A DNA stretch of 64,000 nt from Candidatus Hadarchaeales archaeon (lineage in GTDB: Archaea > Hadarchaeota > Hadarchaeia > Hadarchaeales > WYZ-LMO6), in the NCBI GenBank assembly GCA_038736355.1, contig JAVYML010000003.1:248001-312000 (forward strand), given 5' to 3'. Shown here piece after piece: positions 30,961 through 54,269 of the stretch; within the stretch, counting starts at the first letter, position 1, and each line of letters begins with the position of its first letter. The notes beneath the pieces were generated by a model. The model was not told the DNA's origin and ran no database searches. It saw only the letters and a program-made list of their open reading frames with translations. Both the position numbers and the translations under genes were made by a program.

Positions 30961-31063
30961 GCCCCGGTGGTGTAGCCCGGCCAATCATAGTGGCCTCATG
31001 GGCGGCGAAGAGTCGTCCAGGCCAATCGAGCCACAGACGCGGGTTCAAATCCCGCCCGGGGCA
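30961..31063 (+). tRNA. tRNA-Glu (CTC anticodon) with a 28-nt intron inside the anticodon
   Basis: Acceptor GCCCCGG/CCGGGGC, D arm GTG...CAT, anticodon stem GTGGC/GCCAC and T arm GCGGG-TTCAAAT-CCCGC fold cleanly once 30998-31025 is removed. The spliced loop is CTCTCGA, anticodon CTC, and the body matches archaeal tRNA-Glu. The mature tRNA is 75 nt; no CCA is encoded. The intron splits positions 34 and 35, not the usual 37/38. Confidence 0.88.
30998..31025 (+). other. tRNA-Glu intron (position 34/35), bulge-helix-bulge type
   Basis: In the precursor, GGCC (30992-30995) can pair with GGCC (31020-31023) as the 4-bp central helix. The 3-nt bulges TCA and AAT flank it, and an 8-bp hairpin (TGGGCGGC with GTCGTCCA, loop GAAGA) follows. 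Cutting each bulge after its second nucleotide releases exactly 28 nt and leaves a 7-nt anticodon loop. Confidence 0.8.
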
Positions 31064-53963: not shown

Positions 53964-54137
53964 GTGAGTTTCAAATTTTTGGACCCCAGAAATCGCAAAA
54001 CGCCTCCTTCCCCTGTGAACAGTAAATAACACAGAACATGTCCAAACCTCCCAAGACTTCAAAAATCTGCCTCAATTCGCGTTTTAAACAGCTGAAAATG
54101 GCGGGCCCGGTGGGATTTGAACCCACGACCGTCCGGT

Positions 54138-54149
54138 TTCCCCACACGT
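54138..54149 (-). other. tRNA-Lys intron 3, position 37/38, 12 nt
   Basis: ACGTGTGGGGAA is only 12 nt. A weak central helix CTCT/GGGG with two G-U pairs, bulge TAA and loop CGTGT is possible, so the structure is less certain than for the other two. The cut could shift by one or two nucleotides without changing the product because of repeated A residues. Confidence 0.65.
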
Positions 54150-54156
54150 TAAGAGC

Positions 54157-54180
54157 TTCATCCGGTCCTCTTCGGACCGA
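54157..54180 (-). other. tRNA-Lys intron 2, position 30/31, 24 nt
   Basis: CATC pairs with GATG as the central helix, with bulges CGT (5') and AAG (3') and a hairpin CGGTCC-GAAGA-GGACCG. Cutting after the second bulge nucleotide joins TCCG to GCTCTTA and completes the anticodon stem. Confidence 0.8.
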
Positions 54181-54202
54181 CGGATGCTCCACCAGACTGA
54201 GC

Positions 54203-54223
54203 TTCCCGGTAGCTTGCGCTACT
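54203..54223 (-). other. tRNA-Lys intron 1, position 9/10, 21 nt
   Basis: CCCG of the acceptor strand pairs with CGGG at the intron 3' end as the 4-bp central helix. Bulges are TAA (5') and AAG (3'). A GTAGC-GCAA-GCTAC hairpin fills the intron. Cutting after the second bulge nucleotide on both sides restores T8-A9-G10. Confidence 0.82.
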
Positions 54224-54269
54224 TACGGGCCCGGGCCCCATAAAGCTCCCTCCTCTCTTTCTTAAAAAC

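Follow-up and report, generated by a model that had tools for sequence, protein, structure and literature searches.

Three short EndA-type introns at canonical and non-canonical sites, with bulge-helix-bulge (BHB) splice motifs, have been described in single tRNA genes of Thermoproteales, such as tRNA-Pro(UGG) of Pyrobaculum islandicum, which is interrupted at 25/26, 37/38 and 56/57 (PMC4090602). Many non-canonical and multiple introns are also known outside Thermoproteales, from the Asgard groups Atabeyarchaeia and Freyarchaeia (PMC11291895) and from Caldiarchaeum (PMC3293823). In the split and permuted tRNAs of Nanoarchaeum, Caldivirga and Staphylothermus, pairing of flanking leader or trailer sequences builds the splicing substrate (PMC3218864, PMC4090602). 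The current work concerns a three-intron tRNA-Lys(CTT) gene on the minus strand of a 64,000-nucleotide (nt) stretch of DNA from a Candidatus Hadarchaeales archaeon (contig JAVYML010000003.1, positions 248,001 to 312,000), hereafter the window; coordinates without a contig name are window positions. Directly 5' of this gene stands a copy of its own acceptor strand, which probably serves as a decoy during splicing.

A three-intron tRNA outside Thermoproteales is in itself an already known type (PMC4090602, PMC11291895, PMC3293823). The original prediction, made from the sequence alone, had considered such a gene notable in this host; the host does belong to another phylum, Hadarchaeota, but with the Asgard and Caldiarchaeum cases in print the gene is less unusual than was claimed. 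The differences lie elsewhere. Compared with the multi-intron tRNAs of Thermoproteales, this gene occurs beside a single alpha-type EndA and not an alpha2beta2 enzyme, and it has the leader copy. Position 9/10 (8/9 in tRNA-Asn) is not among the intron positions named in the review text PMC4090602, and no mention of a leader element was found in the texts of PMC11291895 and PMC3293823. The tRNA-Lys(CUU) of Staphylothermus is split at 30/31, exactly where intron 2 interrupts the present gene (PMC3218864, PMC4090602). In split tRNAs, however, it is the leaders that make up the BHB, and they bring separate transcripts together, whereas the leader described here would pair with a strand of the mature tRNA and free its partner, all within one contiguous gene.

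Introns next to the acceptor stem create a folding conflict: the strand of the splice motif also makes the most stable helix of the tRNA. A leader decoy, if real, would be a simple solution and would explain how introns can sit at acceptor-adjacent positions. No description of a leader-acceptor decoy was found in the searched literature, most subscription papers lying outside the reach of the search; to that extent the decoy leader appears to be undescribed. The copy lies outside the coordinates of the original prediction and is the most informative feature of the locus.

Structure and splice motifs of the tRNA-Lys(CTT) gene

The mature body extends from 54232 to 54102 (-) and is followed by an encoded CCA (54101-54099). 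Read on the minus strand, the gene is arranged as GGGCCC-GGGCCCGTA-[21]-GCTC...ATCCG-[24]-GCTCTTA-[12]-ACCGGA...CGGGCCCG-CCA, with intron lengths in brackets. The unspliced gene was detected neither by ARAGORN nor by Rfam cmscan at the gathering threshold. When 21, 24 and 12 nt were removed in silico at 9/10, 30/31 and 37/38, ARAGORN called a tRNA-Lys(ctt), a standard tRNA with a clean cloverleaf, and this call was obtained on the spliced sequence only. Together with the scoring of the splice motifs, it bears out the three introns, their coordinates and the near-perfect spliced product that had been predicted.

Each intron boundary was scored for the BHB motif, and one clearly best register emerged per intron. 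Counted as central/inner/outer base pairs (bp), the scores are 4/5/3 for intron 1, 4/6/4 for intron 2 and 4/0/5 for intron 3. The common geometry claimed for introns 1 and 2 is present: both have a 4-bp central helix with 4/4 pairs and two 3-nt bulges, each cut after the second nucleotide. Both motifs thus belong to the strict hBHBh' type; a relaxed motif, lacking an inner helix, is seen in the 12-nt intron 3 alone. The scoring rules out a relaxed reading of introns 1 and 2; the description of the substrates as relaxed BHBs in the original prediction was therefore mostly wrong, applying to intron 3 alone.

The anticodon stem can form only once intron 2 has been removed. In the motif of intron 1 (BHB-1), acceptor nt 4-7 make the central helix, while nt 1-3 make the outer helix by pairing with nt 11-13. 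Since BHB-1 is built from acceptor nt 1-7, it and the normal acceptor stem are mutually exclusive. In all 15 genes scored, intron 1 shows 4/4 central pairs and 3-nt bulges.

Genomes are numbered here with the window's genome as G000, a congener as G001, a family member as G003, and order relatives as G007, G017 and G023. The three-intron gene is retained in G001 and G003, where its exons have hardly changed and its intron loops drift; intron 1 stays at 21 nt and intron 3 at 12 nt, and intron 2 measures 22-24 nt. The order relatives keep subsets of the introns: 30/31 alone in G007, 37/38 alone in G017, and 9/10 with 37/38 in G023. The tRNA set of the genome (gathered by Rfam, a T-arm pattern and retrieved sequence stretches) yielded no tRNA-Lys(CTT) without introns, and Lys(TTT) is the only other Lys gene found in it. 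A split or trans-spliced tRNA is ruled out by the exons, which all lie in order within 131 bp. The leader copy is likewise ruled out as the real 5' strand of the mature tRNA, as U8 and position 9 follow the second copy only. The sequence points to a functional tRNA-Lys(CTT) gene that is interrupted by three introns of the EndA type.

Association of the leader copy with introns at 8/9 and 9/10

The sequence GGGCCC directly 5' of the gene is a copy of acceptor nt 1-6. Orthologous Lys, Ile2 and Asn genes were compared across Hadarchaeota and in one distant archaeon, G049, which has only the domain in common with the window's genome and whose EndA shares about 52% identity with those of Hadarchaeota. 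A full pairable leader copy is present in 18 of the 19 genes with an intron at 8/9 or 9/10 and in 0 of the 32 without (Fisher p 7e-13, relatedness of the genes ignored). The copy-bearing genes are those for Lys in the window, G001, G003 and G023, for Ile2 in G003, G009, G021, G022 and G049, and for Asn in G000-G003, G013, G015, G017, G018 and G022. The 32 genes without such an intron comprise 16 Ile2, 14 Asn and 2 Lys genes, 23 of them scored by script and 9 by eye.

Two pattern searches, each blind to one of the two elements, agree with this count. A leader-blind pattern for the 9/10 intron found 8 genes in 394 archaeal genomes (0 in the reversed control), and the copy is present in 8/8; an intron-blind pattern for the copy matched tRNA genes only where a 9/10 intron follows. 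Even inside individual genera or families, intron and copy were gained or lost jointly (Asn in g7, g11 and g12; Ile2 in f1 and g12), so that the association does not go back to one inherited event. A 6/6 leader copy occurs in none of the 41 other tRNA genes of the window's genome, and a random 12-nt leader pairs at 6/6 in 1.4% of trials. These comparisons strongly support an association of the leader copy with introns at 8/9 and 9/10.

Two further observations concern the Asn, Ile2 and Lys genes. In a conserved neighbourhood, tRNA-Asn and tRNA-Ile2 lie about 2.4 kb apart (G003 C12:18654-21061; G000 C2:278391-281002); an 8/9-9/10 intron with leader copy is present in both genes of G003 and in Asn alone in G000. 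Over 47-50 nt comprising leader copy, exon 1 and intron 1, Ile2 of G003 (L178) and Lys of G000 (54238-54190) are about 88-90% alike, which suggests intron transfer or gene conversion between tRNA genes.

Folding of precursors with native and replaced leaders

Fourteen precursors were folded by partition function at 37 C and 75 C, with the native leader or with a random replacement. Across all 14, the copy is predicted to pair with the 3' acceptor strand with a probability (P) of 0.67-1.0. In the window gene, a random replacement of the leader lowers the P of the BHB-1 central helix from 0.82 to 0.03 at 37 C and from 0.48 to 0.01 at 75 C; the drop is due to the normal acceptor stem, whose P in the model is then 0.95. 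Most other modelled genes respond in the same way. The normal acceptor stem reaches a P of about 0.9-1.0 in most leader-replaced models, and replacement of the copy nearly always abolishes BHB-1.

A decoy acceptor strand as the proposed mechanism

The association and the folding models make it likely that a leader-encoded decoy acceptor strand licenses splicing of intron 1 before RNase P acts. In the precursor, BHB-1 and the normal acceptor stem would compete for acceptor nt 1-7. The leader copy would take up the 3' acceptor strand in a substitute stem, leaving the true 5' strand free to form the BHB, at which EndA would cut out intron 1. After ligation, the true 5' strand would displace the decoy and RNase P would remove it, so that excision of intron 1 would precede 5' maturation. 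In this scheme the gene, its introns, their BHB geometry, the copy and its association with 8/9-9/10 introns are read from the sequence and the folding switch is computed; transcription start, splicing, processing order and strand exchange we infer. The median distance from the TATA-like box is 26 nt to the copy and 36 nt to the gene, as against 29 nt in genes that lack the 8/9-9/10 intron, and from this spacing transcription probably begins at the copy. The genome encodes an RNase P RNA (202.8 bits), and thus the copy can be trimmed later. With somewhat less confidence, the device may be taken as general and cis-acting: archaeal pre-tRNAs with an intron against the acceptor stem would carry a decoy at the 5' end, which would force a spliceable fold and fix the order of intron-1 splicing and then RNase P. 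On balance we favour this wider view, in which at least three tRNA species and at least two distantly related archaeal lineages acquired or retained the device.

Several points weigh against the decoy mechanism. The Asn gene of G006 has an 8/9-9/10 intron but only a partial copy with a 5-bp match, and the compared genes are kin, so that the p-value overstates their independence. Little BHB forms at 75 C in the models of Asn G022, Ile2 G022 and Asn G015, or at 37 C in those of Asn G000, Asn G002 and Ile2 G003. Two-dimensional energies predict no win of the true acceptor stem after loss of intron 1; a self-driven switch back is therefore unsupported by them, and the strand exchange must rely on tertiary structure or RNase P. 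Finally, the mechanism makes a clear prediction of processing order, and this order is opposite to that measured in Methanopyrus, where the ends are trimmed before the introns leave (PMC3695527).

The copy could also be a relic of intron gain. As a mere footprint left by local duplication of the 5' end of the gene, it would have no role in splicing, although the introns would be real. The copy does repeat the acceptor 5' strand directly, with exact or near-exact identity, and is confined to genes that have the intron, and tRNA intron transposition has been described for Thermoproteales in work cited in PMC4090602. A footprint would hardly, however, be kept at 6-7 nt across the family, the order and the distant G049, with 0-4 nt of spacer between copy and gene. 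Pairing to the 3' acceptor strand is retained through G-U in all three variants of the copy (GGGUCCG twice, GCUGGGG), promoters are spaced to the copy and not to the gene, and the leader replacements removed BHB-1 in nearly every model. This explanation is considered unlikely.

Slightly less probable still is a role of the copy in another step, as an acceptor-like stem for 3' trimming by tRNase Z or as protection of the 5' end, instead of EndA licensing. In the modelled structures the T stem continues into the stacked decoy stem, which would thereby imitate the acceptor-T half in the unspliced precursor, and 3' trimming comes first in Methanopyrus (PMC3695527). Yet the normal acceptor stem, which forms in most modelled precursors deprived of the copy, would already suit 3' trimming, and only simultaneous formation of the BHB would call for the copy. 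The idea of a pseudogene in decay, or of a tRNA-like sequence arisen by chance, as the failure of standard detectors might suggest, can hardly be entertained and is already contradicted by the standard cloverleaf of the spliced body, the near-invariant exons and structurally kept introns in two relatives, and the lack of a second Lys(CTT) gene among those found in the genome.

Table 1. Features of the tRNA-Lys(CTT) locus and the basis of their assignment
Feature	Position	Strand	Basis and remarks
TATA-like box (TTTTTAAG)	54261..54268	-	Predicted by scan; centre about 26 nt upstream of leader copy
GGGCCC in the leader, copying the acceptor 5' strand; proposed decoy for 3' acceptor strand	54233..54238	-	Sequence; kept in G001, G003, G023; association and folding tests
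Exon 1, nt 1-9 (GGGCCCGTA)	54224..54232	-	nt 1-7 double as acceptor strand and part of intron-1 BHB
Intron 1, 21 nt, 9/10	54203..54223	-	Strict BHB: central CCCG:CGGG, inner GUAGC:GCUAC, outer GGG:CUC
Exon 2, nt 10-30	54181..54202	-	Sequence and ARAGORN on spliced form
Intron 2, 24 nt, 30/31	54157..54180	-	Strict BHB: central CAUC:GAUG, inner CGGUCC:GGACCG, outer 4 bp including GAG:CUC
Exon 3, nt 31-37	54150..54156	-	Anticodon CTT at 54153-54151
Intron 3, 12 nt, canonical 37/38	54138..54149	-	Relaxed motif without inner helix
Exon 4, nt 38-73	54102..54137	-	3' acceptor strand CGGGCCC at 54109-54103
Encoded CCA end	54099..54101	-	Sequence

Host and splicing endonuclease

The host is a subsurface archaeon with a 1.27 Mb Hadarchaeota (Hadesarchaea) genome near WYZ-LMO6. 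Its EndA is 90%, 85% and 76% identical to those of three metagenome-assembled genomes (MAGs), from an uncultured archaeon, Hadesarchaea WYZ-LMO6 and Hadesarchaea S4B3_HD70, respectively; with Hadesarchaea MAGs as best relatives, the host falls in Hadarchaeota and outside Thermoproteales.

The subunit type of the endonuclease, proposed as a check in the original prediction, could be approached through the gene. A single-copy gene encodes an EndA of 177 aa with an N domain (PF02778) and a catalytic domain (PF01974). A profile search of the genome found no second PF01974 match, and hence no second subunit gene. One EndA gene each is present in 11 of 12 other genomes, and none was found in the incomplete G022. 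The best single-length PDB match is the alpha4 EndA of Methanocaldococcus jannaschii (1a79, E 1.7e-35), which has the same two-domain layout and no crenarchaeal loop. Aligned to the Aeropyrum pernix subunit 3p1z, the hadarchaeal protein lacks a 9-residue insertion in the region of the crenarchaeal-specific loop (CSL), which has been linked to broad specificity (PMC12397907). With neither a CSL insertion nor a second subunit gene, an alpha2beta2 EndA with CSL was rejected. Gene architecture and similarity to 1a79 point to an alpha4-type homotetramer.

Non-canonical introns have been tied mainly to two-subunit enzymes (PMC4090602, PMC3218864), with three thermophilic methanogens already listed as having them (PMC3218864). 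Alpha-type enzymes in the literature accompany few and mostly canonical introns (PMC4090602, PMC3218864), whereas the EndA described here stands alongside about ten non-canonical ones. Hadarchaeota depart in this from the reported link of non-canonical introns to two-subunit or loop-bearing endonucleases, and their single-gene EndA offers a direct test of the rule that relates introns to endonuclease type.

Other interrupted tRNA genes

The tRNA set of the genome comprises about 46 genes, of which about 17 are interrupted. Canonical 37/38 introns occur in Lys(CTT), Ile2, Asn, both Met, Trp, Tyr, Thr(GGT), Arg(TCG) and Pro(CGG). Non-canonical introns are found in Lys (9/10, 30/31), Ile2 (30/31), Asn (8/9), Glu(CTC) (34/35), Ser(GCT) (28/29) and His (T arm), as well as in Asp (~21/22) and both Gln (~15/16), the positions in the last two being set by hand from the sequences and less secure; Gly(CCC) is also interrupted.

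At 30961-31063 (+) of the window lies a tRNA-Glu(CTC) whose anticodon is interrupted at 34/35 by a 28-nt intron, which has a 4/4 BHB and an 8-bp inner helix; ARAGORN called Met(CAT) here, which was rejected on the body sequence and the 4/4 BHB. Adjoining tRNA-Gln genes, TTG and CTG (G000 C1:40641-40840, L077), each have a D-loop intron of about 16-17 nt near 15/16. The tRNA-His gene (G000 C3:36050-36140, L067) has a T-arm insertion of about 20 nt that matches no strict BHB. An additional T-arm insertion occurs in tRNA-Asn of G004, G012, G007 and G022 (L228, L229, L230 and L231), and D-arm insertions in several members of the order. T-arm introns may avoid the acceptor conflict in a manner of their own. 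Introns of archaeal tRNA-Trp are known to hold a C/D box small RNA; C/D-box-like motifs were seen inside the long 37/38 introns of L091 (Trp), L208 (Asn) and L044 (Met).
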